DNA from: Rhodoferax sp. BLA1
GTDB lineage: Bacteria > Pseudomonadota > Gammaproteobacteria > Burkholderiales > Burkholderiaceae_C
Length of the DNA stretch: 64,000 nucleotides
Assembly (NCBI RefSeq): GCF_013416775.1
Contig: NZ_SZVI01000003.1
Span: 186,001-250,000, forward strand
Direction of reading: 5' to 3'
Shown here: positions 41,065-50,773 of the stretch, piece by piece
How the letters are laid out: each line of letters opens with the position of its first letter
Position numbering within the stretch: the stretch's first letter is position 1
The notes under the pieces: model-generated
What the model was told of the DNA's origin: nothing
Seen by the model: only the letters and a program-made list of their open reading frames with translations
Database searches by the model: none
Translations under genes and position numbers: made by a program

Positions 41065-42528
41065 TCAGGTGGTTCCTGTTGAAGGTGGGTTGTCCTGGTC
41101 GGCTTTGGCACTGTCCATGCCCTTGAGCTCGGCCAATGCCAGCGCAGCGGCCATCACCTTGACCATGGCGCGGTTGTCCAGGTCACCGTAGGCCTGCACC
41201 AGCTTGCGCTGCAGATCTGCGGTGCTGGTGGCGTTGTCCACCAGCTGCTGCAGCTGTTCGACCATGCTGTCGACCTCAGGTTTTGCGGCGCTGGCCAGCT
41301 GATCGACTTCGGCCTGCAGGGGGTCTGAGGATGTAACTGGTTCGGCAAACGCAACTGCAGGCTTGGCTTGTGGCGTACCCTCAGGCTGTAAATCACCGTC
41401 CTGGTAACCATAGGCACGCTGCCAATACTGGTTTGTGAAGCGGGCCCCAGCTTCATAGTTGCTCTTGTCACGGTCCGCCTGCAGGACATCCTGCTCGGCT
41501 TGATCCCAAAAGCTGAAAACCGGTGCTGCAACGTCTCCAAAATTGAGCTCACACACCCACTTGATCAACTGATTGATCGCCGTGGCAATGATGCGGGCAT
41601 CAGCATCGCGCAGATCCTTGGTCACCTCCAGCCCGGCCGTCGCACTGGCCTTGTTCGCGCTGGCCTGTGTCGTCTGGTTCTGACCAAGCAGAGCAATGGC
41701 GATCTCGGCATTACATTCGGCCACCAACTGGGCATACAGGTCACCACTGGCACTTTTTCCTGCCAGCTCGATGAGCTCAACGCTGCCGTCATCAGGTATT
41801 ACAGCCACACCGTTCTGAATCAGGTCCTCCAGGCTTTCGAGCAACTTGTCGCGCTCAGGGTCCGAGGAGTTGCGCGGCAGTTTTCCGATGCTGAACGCAC
41901 TACCAAATTTCTCGACAAATGCCAGCCAGAATTTGAGCCCACCCTTCTTGAACTTCAGCGGCCAATAACACATGCTCAGTGATGCCAGCCCATAGGGATT
42001 CTGATAGGTCGGGCTCTGTCGCGGAAGCAGATACTTTTTGCCGGGATCTTCTTCGCCAAACATGGGGTGTTCACGCGACTTGAACCGAAGCATGTTCGAC
42101 GAGTCGAAACAGAACCACTCTGGCGGCTTGGCGATCACATCACCTGGCACGATCAACCCGCCAGACTGTTCCCACACCACCTCCATCGGTTGGTAGCCGT
42201 ACAACACACAGTCCTGCATCTGCTCAATGATCGTGCTCAGTGGCAGATCGTCCAGCACGGCCTGGACGCCCTTGGCTGCCCGGCTGCTGGCCTTGCCACG
42301 GTCCAGACCGTAGTCCAGGGCTTGGACACTGGATTTACGCCTGGCAATGCAGCTGCCAATCAGCCCATCGGTGGCCATGGCGCGGTAAGTCGATATGTCC
42401 TTGCCTTGTGCCTTGAGGATCGGGTCGGGATTGGGCAACAACAAGCCCATGCCGCTGTAGTCAAGACTTCGATTTCGGGTAGCCAGGTGAGAAGTAAGGA
42501 TGTTTCGTGTTGCCATGTCAGAAGCCAT
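41065..42528 (-). CDS. Portal protein (DUF935, Mu gp29-like)
   Basis: A 487-aa portal of the DUF935 family. DGLIGSCIARRKSSVQALDYGL, CVLYGYQPMEVVWEQ and IAIALLGQNQTTQASANKASATAGLEV are characteristic. The portal is the ring through which DNA enters the head. It overlaps the large terminase stop. In Mu the next gene is MuF, but here six extra genes come between them. Confidence 0.9.
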   Translation of the reverse strand: MASDMATRNILTSHLATRNRSLDYSGMGLLLPNPDPILKAQGKDISTYRAMATDGLIGSCIARRKSSVQALDYGLDRGKASSRAAKGVQAVLDDLPLSTIIEQMQDCVLYGYQPMEVVWEQSGGLIVPGDVIAKPPEWFCFDSSNMLRFKSREHPMFGEEDPGKKYLLPRQSPTYQNPYGLASLSMCYWPLKFKKGGLKFWLAFVEKFGSAFSIGKLPRNSSDPERDKLLESLEDLIQNGVAVIPDDGSVELIELAGKSASGDLYAQLVAECNAEIAIALLGQNQTTQASANKASATAGLEVTKDLRDADARIIATAINQLIKWVCELNFGDVAAPVFSFWDQAEQDVLQADRDKSNYEAGARFTNQYWQRAYGYQDGDLQPEGTPQAKPAVAFAEPVTSSDPLQAEVDQLASAAKPEVDSMVEQLQQLVDNATSTADLQRKLVQAYGDLDNRAMVKVMAAALALAELKGMDSAKADQDNPPSTGTT

Positions 42529-44137
42529 TCATGTTGATGCTGCCGATGCGCTGGTCCGAGCGCCGCTTGCGCGACTTCGCCACCACAGGACCAAGATTGA
42601 TTTCACGGCTGGCAAAGTAAGCCAGAGCGACAGCCACAGCGGCATCACCGTGGCGCTTGCCTTTGTCTTCACCGGTGCTGCGGGCGTCAGGAATGCGCGG
42701 CACGCCCTTGATCACCTGCACCGCCCGCAAGTCAGCCAAGGTGTCTGCGTCTTTGGGTAAATCGTCCAGCGTGCCATCTTCCAGTGCGGCCTTCACCGGC
42801 GGCATGTGCTCGCGGTACCAGCTCTCAGACAGCATCACCTGCTGGATCCGACTGGCGCCGTAGCGCTGCATGGCTACTTCAGCCAAAAACTGACCATTGC
42901 CACGCGCATCAAAGGCCCCGCCCATAAAGCGTGGCAGTCGGTCAAGCAAGTAAAACGCGATCTGTTCCTGCTGGCGAAAAGGCACATTGCGCAGCTCCAC
43001 CGTGAACGGCACCCGACGCACCAGGTTCTGGTGCTGCAGCAGTGGCACGTGGACGGATAAGTCACCAGACCGCCCAAAGTCTTCACCATCAAAACTGATC
43101 ACATCGGTGGGCAGCGCTTCCAGCAGAGGCAGCATGACCGCCTCCAGCCAATCACGACATTCGGCGTGGCGGATTTGATCTGCCAGCACCTCAAAACCCG
43201 GTTTGCACTCCCAGCGCAGCACCGGCGTGTTGGCTGACATGCGCAGCTCAATCAGCGCCCGGCTCAGCCAGGCACCGCCGCCATGCCTGGGGACACAGCC
43301 ATATTCCTCATCAGCACACTCGACGTTTGGCGCGTTCTTGTACAAATCGTCGCGCCACTTCTTCTCGGCCTCTGGTGACCAGGTCTGGCCCGTCACATAG
43401 CAAATGCGCTTGTACAGACCGTCGGCAATGGCATCGTCCAGCGTGATGCGGTGCACGCTGTAATTCTTGCGCCCCTCACGAGCCTCCTGGATGTACTGGG
43501 CAAAGGGGTTGTCAACCCCGTTGTGCGTGCTGATCAGACGCACCTTGTTGCCCCACATAGTCAGAGCCAAAGCGGCCTTAAGCAACTCTTCCAGCTCCCC
43601 GTGGAATGCCGCCTCATCAATCACCACATCGCCCTGCAGACCCCGCAAATTTGACGGTCTGCTGGACAACGCCTGGATCTTGAACCCAGACTTCGGGAAG
43701 CGGATCATGTAGGTCAAGATTTCCTCGTTCTTGCCCTCATCCCAAAAGCTCTGCTCATACACATCGGCCTGGGCCAACTCGTTAAAAGCCTTAGCAAACA
43801 GCGCACAGGCGGCGATGTATTCCAGCGCCATTTCCTTCTTGCTGCCCACGTAAAATGTATTGCAGCCCTGGCGGCGGCGCGGTTTGGCTGCCTTGACCAC
43901 ATTGCGCCCAGCCTCGGCCCAGGTCAGGCCCGTGCGGCGCGATTTCTCCCCGAACATGATCTGGGACTCATCATCAAACCAGCGTTGCTGATAGGGCAAA
44001 AAGACAGGCTCATGCGCCGGAATGGCGTCAACCACATCTTGTGGCACCACAACCCCGGCCAGCGCCATCTCCTCGCCAAGATTGATCTTGCGCGGGGTGC
44101 CAATGGGCTTGAGCGGTGCGGGCGGTTTTGTGGCCAT
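42518..44137 (-). CDS. Large terminase subunit (Mu gp28-like)
   Basis: A 539-aa packaging motor. The Walker A-like segment is MFGEKSRRTGLTWAEA near residue 65 and Walker B is DVVIDEAAFH near 175. The nuclease domain begins with DVISFDGEDFGRSGDLS near residue 350. An AAGGAG Shine-Dalgarno precedes ATG 44137. It lies 4 bp after the small terminase gene and overlaps the portal gene. Confidence 0.92.
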   Translation of the reverse strand: MATKPPAPLKPIGTPRKINLGEEMALAGVVVPQDVVDAIPAHEPVFLPYQQRWFDDESQIMFGEKSRRTGLTWAEAGRNVVKAAKPRRRQGCNTFYVGSKKEMALEYIAACALFAKAFNELAQADVYEQSFWDEGKNEEILTYMIRFPKSGFKIQALSSRPSNLRGLQGDVVIDEAAFHGELEELLKAALALTMWGNKVRLISTHNGVDNPFAQYIQEAREGRKNYSVHRITLDDAIADGLYKRICYVTGQTWSPEAEKKWRDDLYKNAPNVECADEEYGCVPRHGGGAWLSRALIELRMSANTPVLRWECKPGFEVLADQIRHAECRDWLEAVMLPLLEALPTDVISFDGEDFGRSGDLSVHVPLLQHQNLVRRVPFTVELRNVPFRQQEQIAFYLLDRLPRFMGGAFDARGNGQFLAEVAMQRYGASRIQQVMLSESWYREHMPPVKAALEDGTLDDLPKDADTLADLRAVQVIKGVPRIPDARSTGEDKGKRHGDAAVAVALAYFASREINLGPVVAKSRKRRSDQRIGSINMNGF

Positions 44138-44141
44138 GGAG

Positions 44142-44714
44142 CTACTCCTTGCCCAGCAAAATGCGGCGAATGCGGGCTTCCATCTGCTCGCTCATACCGT
44201 CAGAGCCGCGCATTTCCTGAAGCTTGACTTCCTGTTGCTCCAGCAACTTGCGCCGTGCCTCGTCAGCCACACTGCGCCGCTCTTTCAGGTTCAGGCTGCG
44301 CGCCTCTTGAGCCACCTTGGCCGCACGGGCCAAGTCAAGCACATCGCTGATGTCCATCACCGTGCCGTTGCTGGTGGCTTCAATCGCCTGAAAAGCTCGC
44401 TTGTTTGCCAGCGTCGTCACGGCCTGGGCCAACAGGGCGCCGCTTTTGGCGTCAAAGTCCTCTCCAAGCTCTCCCACCAGGGCTTCTGCCGCTGCAGCCA
44501 TTTCGCGCTCGTTTGCCACGATCTCACGCACACCCTGGCTGTATCTCTGCACCGCACTCACGCTGGGCAGCACGCCCGCCGCACACAGGTCCGGGAACTC
44601 CTTTTGTAGATCGGCAATAAGCTCCACCAGCGTCAGCCGGTTCTCGCGCAAGTGCTTCTGCACCCGGGCACGTACCTCGCTTGGCAGCTTATCGATGCTC
44701 GATTTGCGCCCCAT
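44142..44714 (-). CDS. Small terminase subunit (DUF3486, Mu gp27-like)
   Basis: A 190-aa helical protein beginning MGRKSSIDKLPSEVRARVQK, the DUF3486 signature, with LIADLQKEFP and a long charged helix at the C-terminus. It recognises phage DNA and recruits the large terminase. Gene order matches Mu genes 27-28-29 read leftward. Confidence 0.9.
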   Translation of the reverse strand: MGRKSSIDKLPSEVRARVQKHLRENRLTLVELIADLQKEFPDLCAAGVLPSVSAVQRYSQGVREIVANEREMAAAAEALVGELGEDFDAKSGALLAQAVTTLANKRAFQAIEATSNGTVMDISDVLDLARAAKVAQEARSLNLKERRSVADEARRKLLEQQEVKLQEMRGSDGMSEQMEARIRRILLGKE

Positions 44715-47442: not shown

Positions 47443-47910
47443 CTACCCGTCCTTGTCGGCAGACTCACTGGCTCGCTCAAAAAGGTTCATCAGAACCTCT
47501 CCGATCCTTGCCAAGGATGCAGCGGTGTAAGAAGCGGTGAAAACGATAACGAACGAAAAAAATTGAGGTACACCCGAAGCTTCATCCAATAAGAAGAACG
47601 CCAGCACGCAAACGCAAGTGAGAAAGAGGCAGCTATATATGGCTCTGTTTAAATACCTAAACAAGTCAGGAAGGTAGCCTTTCTTCCTCATCCAAAGGCC
47701 CGTTGGCGTACTGGAAAAAGGCAACAGGATTGAAATAGCAGTAGCCAAGAACCCAGCCGCGATAGCCCCTGCAGACAACAAGCCAGCCAACAACTCCTTT
47801 GCAAAAAAAATCTTAATTTGCCCATCAAGACACCACCAGGCGGTCGTTGAAAGAACCCCAAACAGCATGGGGCCCCATCTTTCAATCTGCAGCCTTGTGG
47901 GCATGGTCAT
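47443..47910 (-). CDS. Four-TM inner-membrane protein, RexB/KwaA-like partner
   Basis: A 155-aa protein from ATG 47910 (MTMPTRLQIE), one base after the upstream gene's stop. An upstream in-frame start at 48003 would overlap that gene by 92 bp. Four membrane segments are visible: WGPMLFGVLSTTAWWCL, LAGLLSAGAIAAGFLATAISI, IYSCLFLTCVCVLAFFLL and FFSFVIVFTASYTAASLA. The tail is acidic. It is the last gene of the repressor operon. Size and topology resemble lambda RexB (144 aa, four TM) and Kiwa KwaA. Identity with either is not shown. Confidence 0.7.
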   Translation of the reverse strand: MTMPTRLQIERWGPMLFGVLSTTAWWCLDGQIKIFFAKELLAGLLSAGAIAAGFLATAISILLPFSSTPTGLWMRKKGYLPDLFRYLNRAIYSCLFLTCVCVLAFFLLDEASGVPQFFSFVIVFTASYTAASLARIGEVLMNLFERASESADKDG

Positions 47911-47911
47911 C

Positions 47912-48784
47912 CTAAAGAGTGTTGCGCCACCCATGATAGGAGCGCTCAAGTAGTCCAAGCCTAGATTTGCGGGTATAGCGGTGTTCAACGACGTCGAGTT
48001 CATCTGCCGAGAATTTTCTCTTCACTTTGTGATGCAGCAAGTCAATCACTAAATCTTTTCCATCTGCCTCTGGACTCTCGCCGCTGACTTGAAGCTTGGT
48101 GACATCTTCCCCGTGTCGCAACATCCCGTCAATGAATTTTTTAATACGCACGTTTTCCAGAAAACTACCCCTCTTTCTGGATTCATTCGCCATCAACTGC
48201 AGGCTGATACGCTTTGGCTTTGCAACCCGGGTAGCTCTGGCAATATCCATGCCGCTGTCTGCATCAGCGTCTTGAAAAGCGTCCATCGTGGCGGTAACGT
48301 CTATCGAGCTAATACCCGTCATGCCTTTAAGCCTTTTCATTACAGCGGGATCAAGCTTTGGGTTGGCAGCATAGTTGAAATGCCTATCCGCGTTGCCTGG
48401 ATCAAGGGCATTGCAATATGCCATCATCCGACTCGGACCAACACCTGCAACGTTATGCAACACGAGAAGCCATTTCTTGTGCGGAACATAGATGGCTGCG
48501 GTTTCTTCGCCAAAGTCCTCATCCATCGCCATTTGAATGGCTTTGATTGGAGAGCCACTTGCTAGTCGGCCAGGGCCAATATCGCGGCGTTTTACAAAGT
48601 CCAATTTGTATAGTCTTGTACCGTCAAACTCTCCTACCTCAATATGCTCTAAGCGAACGTCGTCACGCCAGCGTTTTTCAAGTGGGAGCAATTTGAACTC
48701 ATCCAAGGTGTCGCTAAGCTTTTGTACTGTTGTACGTTCATCCCACTCGACGTCGAAAATGTTGACGGTTACCTGTTTTGCCAT
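47912..48784 (-). CDS. DUF6731-like cytosolic protein, RexA/KwaB-like candidate sensor
   Basis: A 290-aa soluble protein. I believe it fits DUF6731, a family without assigned function. A central stretch reads MDEDFGEETAAIYVPHKKWL, then LHNVAGVGPSRM. The layout of acidic pair, small turn, hydrophobic strand and Gly-Pro recalls the corresponding part of lambda RexA (279 aa). The C-terminal half is helical and basic (VKRKFSADELDVVEHRYTRK). It precedes a four-TM gene by one base and lies in the repressor transcript, like rexA-rexB. GC content looks lower than in neighbouring phage genes. Role as a phage-exclusion sensor is inferred. Confidence 0.65.
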   Translation of the reverse strand: MAKQVTVNIFDVEWDERTTVQKLSDTLDEFKLLPLEKRWRDDVRLEHIEVGEFDGTRLYKLDFVKRRDIGPGRLASGSPIKAIQMAMDEDFGEETAAIYVPHKKWLLVLHNVAGVGPSRMMAYCNALDPGNADRHFNYAANPKLDPAVMKRLKGMTGISSIDVTATMDAFQDADADSGMDIARATRVAKPKRISLQLMANESRKRGSFLENVRIKKFIDGMLRHGEDVTKLQVSGESPEADGKDLVIDLLHHKVKRKFSADELDVVEHRYTRKSRLGLLERSYHGWRNTL

Positions 48785-48808: not shown

Positions 48809-49117
48809 TCATCTTTGCAGCCTGCACTCCATCACATCCCGCTTGGTCTTTTGCCGGTGGGCTTGGATGGTGAGCCACTGCATGTTTTGAGGTGTGTCTG
48901 GGCCCCCGGCGCACAGGGGCACAACGTGATCCACTTCCCAGCCTGGGCACGATCCACGTGTGGCACCGGTCGCTGGGCATGGGTTGGACCGTTTGAAGTC
49001 GTTGACGGCTGTGGTAGATCGGGGGATGCGGGAAAAGGCTGGGGCGCTGGCCAGGGCCAGACAGAGCGCGAGTAGCTGTACGCTTGAGGGTGAGCGGAGG
49101 CGGGTTAGGTGACTCAC
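48809..49117 (-). CDS. Secreted HNH endonuclease
   Basis: A 102-aa protein with a signal peptide (VQLLALCLALASAPAFS) and a mature HNH domain. The core is WEVDHVVPLCAGGPDTPQNM, followed by the basic AHRQKTKRDVM. Four cysteines in the mature part suit a disulfide-bonded periplasmic nuclease. The start overlaps the preceding gene by 4 bp, so it belongs to the lysogeny operon. A periplasmic nuclease could cut incoming phage DNA. Confidence 0.75.
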   Translation of the reverse strand: MSHLTRLRSPSSVQLLALCLALASAPAFSRIPRSTTAVNDFKRSNPCPATGATRGSCPGWEVDHVVPLCAGGPDTPQNMQWLTIQAHRQKTKRDVMECRLQR

Positions 49118-49527
49118 GGCTCTTTTGCGGTTGGCGAGAGATCACCTTGAATCTTCTTATATCTGATCAAAAGTTCTTTTAAAACCTTCTTGGGATGGCG
49201 CATAGACCCATTTGCATCTTTTATCTTGGCGCTCCTTGTCATGCTGCTGTTTACCGATTTGTCGTCAACAAAGTACTCCTTGCGTTTTCGGCGAGGCAAG
49301 TCATCTAACAGCCATTGGAGTTCCGCAATGGCTTCTTCTACTTTCCCAGCAGCCAGCAGATATCGTGCGTATTTGCACCAAGTTTCAATCGGATAGGAAA
49401 CAGGAGACGCCAGCATAGTCTGCTTGGCTTGAGAAAGGCATGCCAAGGCCGCTCCAATATCGCCTGCATCCTTTAATCGTGTGGACTCGCGCAACAGGTG
49501 TGCGGTGACCTCGTCATTCGAAAACAT
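49114..49527 (-). CDS. Small helical-repeat (TPR-like) protein
   Basis: A 137-aa soluble protein with two to three helical hairpins of TPR character (ALACLSQAKQTMLASP; WCKYARYLLAAGKVEEAIAEL) and a basic C-terminal half (RRKRKEYF; KVLKELLIRYKKI). It may scaffold the neighbouring operon products. Family is not recognised. It lies 24 bp after the two-TM gene and overlaps the HNH start. Confidence 0.6.
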   Translation of the reverse strand: MFSNDEVTAHLLRESTRLKDAGDIGAALACLSQAKQTMLASPVSYPIETWCKYARYLLAAGKVEEAIAELQWLLDDLPRRKRKEYFVDDKSVNSSMTRSAKIKDANGSMRHPKKVLKELLIRYKKIQGDLSPTAKEP

Positions 49528-49551: not shown

Positions 49552-50031
49552 TTATCTTCGACACCGAAGCACGACCTCGATGACATCAATTTCCGCTTGC
49601 GCTTGTGCCGCAACTCTGCCTTCGATCCGGCGTACTGTTTGAAGCCAGTACATAAGTGGTAGAGCCACCCCTCCAATCAATATCAAAAACAACCATGGCG
49701 ATAGAGTTGGTGTCAAAGCTGAATGCTGAAAAGCTGGACCAACGGGTAACTGTTTCCATACCCATGTGATGAGACCCATCATGTACAGCGACAGCAAAAA
49801 TAGTGGCGTATTGAACCAATAACGCCGCCAAGCACGCCATCGTTCAGATCGCGCTGCCCGCAAGCGTTGTGTGAGTGCATCTGTAGGCAAGTCCCACCAG
49901 GTCAATTCTCGTTCTTGTTGGTGATGTTCGACGATAGTGATATTGCCCGCTGCAACATGTCCGTATACCGGGGCATGGATGTTTTGGATAACTGTTTTGT
50001 CCAACGTTTTTGCTCCCCACGTGAATTGCAC
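49552..50031 (-). CDS. Two-TM membrane protein with repressor-shared N-terminal motif
   Basis: A 159-aa protein starting at GTG 50031, which overlaps the repressor stop by one base (TAGTG). Residues 13-31, TVIQNIHAPVYGHVAAGNI, match residues 114-132 of the repressor at 12/19 positions. Then come a basic helix (LRAARSERWRAWRRYW), two membrane segments (LFLLSLYMMGLITWVW; WLFLILIGGVALPLMYWL) and a helical tail. The layout is motif, linker, membrane module. I do not recognise the family. A signalling or pore-forming partner of the repressor is an inference. Confidence 0.7.
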   Translation of the reverse strand: MQFTWGAKTLDKTVIQNIHAPVYGHVAAGNITIVEHHQQERELTWWDLPTDALTQRLRAARSERWRAWRRYWFNTPLFLLSLYMMGLITWVWKQLPVGPAFQHSALTPTLSPWLFLILIGGVALPLMYWLQTVRRIEGRVAAQAQAEIDVIEVVLRCRR

Positions 50032-50542: not shown

Positions 50543-50773
50543 ATGCACCCAGAACTTATCAAGGCGCAGATCCGCATGAAGGGCACAACGCCCACCAATG
50601 TGGCCCGCAGCTTGGACGTTACCCATACCTGCGTGGCGCACGTCATTGCCGGTCGTGGCACCAGTGAGCGGGTTGCCAAACGCATCAGCGAGGTCACCGG
50701 CATTGCCGTGGCCACCCTGTGGCCTGGCAAATACCCGAACGTCGATCAGTTGCCGACTAGTTCACATACGTGA
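50543..50773 (+). CDS. ner: Ner-like DNA-binding protein
   Basis: A 76-aa protein beginning MHPELIKAQIRMKGTTPTNV with the helix-turn-helix PTNVARSLDVTHTCVAHVIAG and the end LWPGKYP, typical of the Ner/Nlp family. In Mu, Ner is the first rightward gene and damps both the early and repressor promoters. It starts 54 bp after the early -10 box. Confidence 0.85.
   Translation: MHPELIKAQIRMKGTTPTNVARSLDVTHTCVAHVIAGRGTSERVAKRISEVTGIAVATLWPGKYPNVDQLPTSSHT

Follow-up and report, generated by a model that had tools for sequence, protein, structure and literature searches.

The closest described counterparts of the locus considered here are the Rex systems, of which just five have been described according to the authors of the newest Rex paper (PMC12894663). 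Lambda RexA is reported to bind DNA non-specifically and to bias the lambda switch without the need for RexB (PMC11077077). For RexABpp of Pseudomonas putida (PP_5643-PP_5644), it is reported that defence requires both genes, that RexApp binds DNA non-specifically, and that RexBpp, when RexApp is overproduced, stops growth and damages membranes with no measurable depolarisation; contact between RexA and RexB was not shown in two-hybrid tests (PMC12894663). Three systems are likened to lambda by the P. putida authors, and in these the membrane partner acts as the effector (PMC12894663), whereas in Butters the RexA-like gp30 is described as the effector and the four-pass gp31 as its modulator (PMC7542560, PMC12894663). 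The question of how T4 rII mutants activate lambda Rex has been open for some 70 years. Here, we describe a two-gene pair from Rhodoferax sp. BLA1, found in a stretch of 64,000 nucleotides (contig NZ_SZVI01000003.1, positions 186,001 to 250,000; “the window”). The pair consists of a gene for a soluble 290-aa protein of the DUF6731 family (47912-48784, minus strand) and a gene for a 155-aa RexB-like membrane protein (47443-47910, minus strand). The two look like a new family of the lambda RexA-RexB type, with which a resident virus blocks competing viruses. The pair probably constitutes a Rex-type module for abortive infection (phage exclusion), which a Mu-like prophage carries as cargo behind its repressor.

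What leads to this reading? It is based on the fold predicted for the soluble protein, the conserved pairing of the two genes, the arrangement of helices predicted for the partner, a remote similarity to RexB, and the exchange of the pair as a cassette. An earlier note, made from the DNA letters alone, gave the coordinates, the lengths of the two proteins, and their spacing correctly: one base separates the stop codon of the DUF6731 gene from the ATG of the membrane gene, which has a possible second start two codons downstream. The note called the soluble protein DUF6731-like, and it does match that family (PF20505, 42.3 bits against a curated cut-off of 27). Its AlphaFold2 model (pLDDT 90.4) has a predicted RexA fold, with a split globular domain (residues about 1-155 and 255-290) and a middle, dimerisation-like domain (about 156-250). 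The top structural match of this model in a fold search of the PDB is RexA; the structure comparison that the note had proposed as a check thus points to a predicted fold related to RexA. A short RexA-like pattern, said to be visible in the sequence itself, could not be recovered: lambda RexA gives no match either in BLASTP or when profiles are compared, and the likeness is one of predicted fold.

The membrane partner was described as having four transmembrane segments, and four long helices are indeed predicted (6-28, 34-65, 79-107, and 116-148; model pLDDT 76.8), together with a short one at 69-76. The central loop is basic, with five lysine or arginine residues in the 155-aa protein and the same number in lambda RexB. 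The protein has no match at E<=1 to the Pfam RexB family (PF15968). A profile comparison by hhalign between the wide partner family and four lambda-type RexB proteins gives a score of 35.5 over 122 columns (probability 69, E 4.4e-5 for a single comparison), and 300 column-shuffled RexB alignments score no higher than 23.8. Single RexB sequences score 26.8-29.2 against the partner family. CarolAnn's accepted RexB-like protein gives no such signal with lambda RexB (0.1). As judged from these alignments, the partner family is likely, but not certain, to be remotely homologous to RexB. In fold searches with the membrane model, nothing in the viral library reached E 0.001, and the PDB gave mostly helix bundles with no clear match, RexB being absent from the listed matches. 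A scan of 299 genomes with PF15968 gave 0 matches but carries no weight because the control was silent too. The similarity to RexB bears on an alternative drawn from Butters, in which the soluble protein would be an antiviral or toxic effector that the membrane protein keeps inactive. The reported roles of gp30 and gp31 (PMC7542560, PMC12894663) provide a precedent for it, and the anatomy of the locus would be identical; it is nonetheless unlikely, given a membrane family remotely similar in sequence to that of lambda RexB and the reported role of the membrane partner as effector in the three lambda-likened systems (PMC12894663).

The pairing of the two genes is conserved in other genomes. In 28 of 33 loci, a profile built from 14 close membrane partners (A2) matches the frame immediately after DUF6731 with an E value of 1e-12 or lower. 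The match is weak (E 0.001-0.011) in L027, L030, and L033, and in L029 and L032 a hydrophobic frame lies directly downstream of DUF6731. A wider profile, which the partners of these first 33 loci helped to build, matches an adjacent same-strand frame in 53 of 53 DUF6731 loci, representing 37 non-identical DUF6731 proteins. Nine new loci played no part in building the profile; eight of them have E values of 2e-20 or lower, and L091 has 0.024. A membrane gene stands behind DUF6731 in all 37 non-identical loci, with weak kinship in six. PF20505 occurs in 5 of 399 genomes of the host family and is rare elsewhere, with 2 of 399 genomes at the level of the order and 5 of 299 at that of the phylum, the last two counts including the window's genome; a single search returned 86 further DUF6731 sequence clusters. 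In the converse search, the membrane profile A5 matches 6 of 398 host-family genomes, five of which are the PF20505 genomes, with both genes adjacent. The sixth genome (G309) carries a RexB-like membrane gene (L100:1357-1915, plus strand) without a PF20505 match; by eye, there are endolysin-like genes nearby.

The earlier note stated that its reading would fail if homologues of the soluble gene usually lacked the membrane partner and occurred outside prophages. This does not fully apply: in the loci fetched, the soluble gene never occurs without a membrane gene behind it, although the surroundings of many relatives are not recognisable as prophage. Of 27 representatives of the 37, several of which are cut by contig ends, 10 have a same-strand repressor-like gene within 5.5 kb upstream. 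Several of the eight genome-contig loci without such a gene sit, by eye, among chromosomal genes. In L002:5001-9943 the pair is followed directly by a type IIG (MmeI-like) restriction-methyltransferase gene in a defence-island-like setting, and in L003 it adjoins a gene with a NERD domain. Given these neighbours and the eight loci without a repressor listed below, the pair probably occurs outside prophages as well. A metagenome-assembled genome labelled Bacteroidetes (L013) has a DUF6731 protein that shares 95% identity with its counterpart on the viral contig L021; the genome may be misbinned, so no claim is drawn from it.

Related Mu-like prophages provide a different view of the pair. Relatives were fetched by means of the gene in the terminase position (42518-44137; no Pfam match), and the best 80 of 137 loci were used. 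At least 7 kb of upstream sequence is present in 52 of the 80, and a same-strand repressor-like gene lies there in 43 of the 52. The DUF6731 pair occurs in two of these 52 loci, the window's own prophage (L138) and L166. A blind scan looked for a soluble frame of 255-400 aa with, no more than 70 bases downstream, a frame of 125-240 aa that has three to five hydrophobic stretches. It found soluble-plus-membrane pairs at the slot behind the repressor in seven loci and none elsewhere; family matches add L166 and L186, which the scan missed, for 9 of 52 in total. The other slot families are DUF4747 in L182 and L206 (E 9e-63 and 1e-72), the PADLOC candidate PDC-M18A/B in L144 (E 3e-139 and 1e-71) and, by similarity to L144, in L151 and L154, the PADLOC candidate PDC-M53A/B in L186 (E 2e-40 and 1e-51), and a family without a name in L158. 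Over about 15 kb, L166 and L182 share 85-90% identity, barring one short gap and the slot, where a clean swap is seen: positions 5690-7108 of L166 (DUF6731 pair) correspond to positions 5518-7087 of L182 (DUF4747 pair). These siblings, which differ mainly in the pair over 15 kb, are a ready-made comparison of two Rex-type specificities. L145 and L158 (95-97.5% identical) also diverge at the slot.

Is DUF4747 more than a neighbour by exchange? A profile-profile comparison between DUF6731 and the two slot DUF4747 sequences gives a score of 46.1 (probability 86, 205 columns), and the controls score at most 21.7 in 150 shuffles and at most 21.3 in 150 unrelated proteins. The soluble protein has no match to the Pfam DUF4747 family (PF15931). 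Published reports place a DUF4747 domain, on weak HHpred evidence, in RexA, CarolAnn gp44, Sbash gp30, and Butters gp30 (PMC6426606, PMC6426596, PMC7542560), and “DUF4747/CarolAnn” is treated as an immune operon in a 2026 paper (PMC13373217). DUF4747 was considered as a bridge to RexA and rejected: the published link was not reproduced, comparison of the slot DUF4747 proteins with RexA and the actinophage proteins gives nothing, and no Pfam family, DUF4747 included, is matched by the CarolAnn, Sbash, and Sejanus proteins. The DUF4747/CarolAnn class (CarolAnn gp44-gp43, Sbash gp30-gp31, and Butters gp30-gp31) resembles the DUF6731 pair in joining a soluble gene to a four-pass gene, and a DUF4747 pair shows the profile match to DUF6731 and the swap with it at one slot. 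We tentatively propose, as a possibility slightly less likely than not, that the slot behind the repressor is an exchange site of this Mu-like group for Rex-type sensor-plus-four-transmembrane pairs, at which at least five families (DUF6731, DUF4747, PDC-M18, PDC-M53, and one unnamed) swap as whole cassettes, and that RexA, RdgC, DUF6731, DUF4747, and perhaps the PADLOC candidates all belong to a single large superfamily of sensors that clamp DNA, with lambda Rex as one small branch.

Several results weigh against a Rex-type module or against its link to RexB. First, the Foldseek whole-chain TM-score to RexA is just 0.29, which might be explained by a different angle between the domains. Second, the fold is also that of RdgC, which is in the fold group of the DUF6731 model among the structural matches listed, and of kinetochore proteins, so the fold leaves the function unfixed. 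Third, neither BLASTP nor hhalign (profile probability 0.3) finds sequence similarity to lambda RexA, and the RexA-like proteins of CarolAnn, Sbash, and Sejanus have no sequence or profile match to the DUF6731 protein. This sequence test is weak because the small lambda RexA and CarolAnn/Sbash/Sejanus sets miss each other too. Fourth, among 127 unrelated membrane windows, taken from 52 stretches of the host genome, one scores 28.6, within the range of single RexB sequences, the next scoring 22.3; when the CarolAnn and Sbash partners are pooled with RexB, the score falls from 35.5 to 28.4 (probability 20). In addition, profile A5 against lambda RexB alone gives a probability of 35 over 71 columns, and in a smaller, earlier control 1 of 100 lambda RexB shuffles exceeded the real score (24.6 against 23.9). 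Fifth, the signal between DUF6731 and DUF4747 comes mainly from L206 (45.8 alone, against 27.9 for L182 alone), and it is gone after pooling with the CarolAnn, Sbash, and Sejanus proteins (probability 0.9). Sixth, the search of 5.5 kb upstream found no repressor-like gene in eight genome-contig loci (L002, L003, and L007-L012).

The second of these points touches on an RdgC-like alternative, in which the soluble protein would mainly bias the lysis-lysogeny switch or the phage's own transposition or recombination, exclusion being secondary or absent. The non-specific DNA binding of RexA and its RexB-independent bias of the switch (PMC11077077) fit such a role, as do the fold common to RdgC and the Mu-like nature of the element. 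This alternative is somewhat less likely still than one of the Butters type, since a membrane gene stands behind DUF6731 in every locus fetched and some loci with the pair, among them the one next to the type IIG restriction gene, showed no repressor. The soluble protein has no match to the RdgC family in the Pfam scan. RdgC is not known to be paired with a membrane protein.

How does the pair compare with the named systems? With lambda Rex, it shares the predicted RexA fold and domain order, a soluble gene that comes first, a position close to the repressor, and, in the partner, four helices, a basic central loop, and the remote profile similarity. It differs in having no RexA sequence similarity, in lying outside Pfam RexA (PF15969, no match at E<=1) as well as Pfam RexB, and in belonging to a Mu-like rather than a lambdoid phage, with three other genes between repressor and pair. 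RexABpp is likened to it by description and not by sequence: its model is reported to be closest to RexA (8TWQ), its partner is a four-pass protein, and it lies downstream of a CI-like repressor with other genes in between (PMC12894663). A seven-residue RexBpp fingerprint found no frame at 6/7 in the loci scanned, and a later scan reached at most 4/7, in unrelated-looking frames; a protein search with a diverse DUF6731 alignment gave 25 hits, no pseudomonad being named among them. The earlier note had offered Kiwa beside Rex as a model, and of the two it is Rex that is supported, by the RexA match, the kept partner, the remote RexB similarity, and the swap with DUF4747. In a Kiwa relative, a membrane sensor would bring a DNA-binding protein to injected phage DNA, and Kiwa, as reported, does pair a membrane protein with a soluble DNA-binding one (PMC12904381). 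This is very improbable for the DUF6731 pair: the soluble protein has no match to the KwaB family PF16162 (which has 0 matches in the host genome), profile probabilities are 0.1 against five KwaB and 0.2 against five KwaA proteins, and KwaA precedes KwaB in 5 of 5 Kiwa loci, whereas the DUF6731 pair has the soluble gene first. KwaB is in the PDB and not among the 50 structural matches listed for the DUF6731 model, which does not exclude a shared fold. Kiwa identity is rejected because family, profile, and gene order all differ.

For a Rex-type exclusion module, the following scheme can be suggested. It is modelled on lambda Rex and, most of all, on RexABpp: the soluble protein would serve as the sensor, working as a DNA clamp, with the membrane protein as effector. 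We infer that the DUF6731 protein dimerises and binds DNA and that its partner acts as a channel or pore; the trigger and the exclusion phenotype are inferred as well. In the cytosol, DUF6731 would form a RexA-like dimer and clamp DNA, or intermediates of protein and DNA, belonging to an incoming phage. After sensing, it would act on its four-pass partner, perhaps via the partner's basic central loop, and the partner would open or damage the membrane, so that growth stops before phage are made. The pair appears to be undescribed, yet of a known kind. No paper among 5.39 million open full texts mentions DUF6731 or PF20505, no PADLOC 2.0.0 model matches either protein at E 10, a PDB sequence search with the soluble protein gave a single chance hit (E 0.91), and tblastn against 50,697 phage records, from which records near the window may be excluded, found nothing at E 0.01. 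A link between Rex and the uncharacterised DUF6731 family would provide many natural variants for mapping the contact between sensor and effector.

The pair lies at the end of a leftward run of genes in a Mu-like prophage, recognised in the window by Mu Gp27 and phage lysozyme matches; the Gp27-like gene (44142-44714, minus strand; Phage_Mu_Gp27, 83.4 bits) marks the element as Mu-like. The run is headed by a helix-turn-helix (HTH) phage repressor (50031-50438, minus strand; Pfam HTH_3, PHROG phrog_8). A Ner/Cro-like HTH gene (50543-50773, plus strand; Pfam HTH_35) is divergent from the run. Behind the repressor come, on the minus strand and in this order, an adjoining gene for a 159-aa protein with hydrophobic stretches (49552-50031; no family above cut-off), a gene for a 137-aa TPR-like protein (49114-49527; weak TPR matches below cut-off, phrog_38637), a gene for a 102-aa protein with an HNH motif directly before the pair (48809-49117; Pfam HNH, 21.7 bits against a cut-off of 21.4), and the pair itself. 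Neighbouring genes lie close together, overlapping or standing apart by about 25 bases at most. The earlier note's leftward operon beginning with the repressor thus survives as a same-strand run that the pair ends; scans of the run for promoters and terminators found nothing above chance, so the operon, in which the pair would be co-transcribed with the repressor, is one of anatomy only. The lower GC content that the note found consistent with cargo is present (the pair has 0.487 and the window 0.595), but it is shared by two of the three remaining genes behind the repressor, those for the 137-aa and 159-aa proteins, with values of 0.48-0.50. The gene for the HNH protein has a GC content of 0.625, unlike its low-GC neighbours, and its product has, by eye, a signal-peptide-like start.
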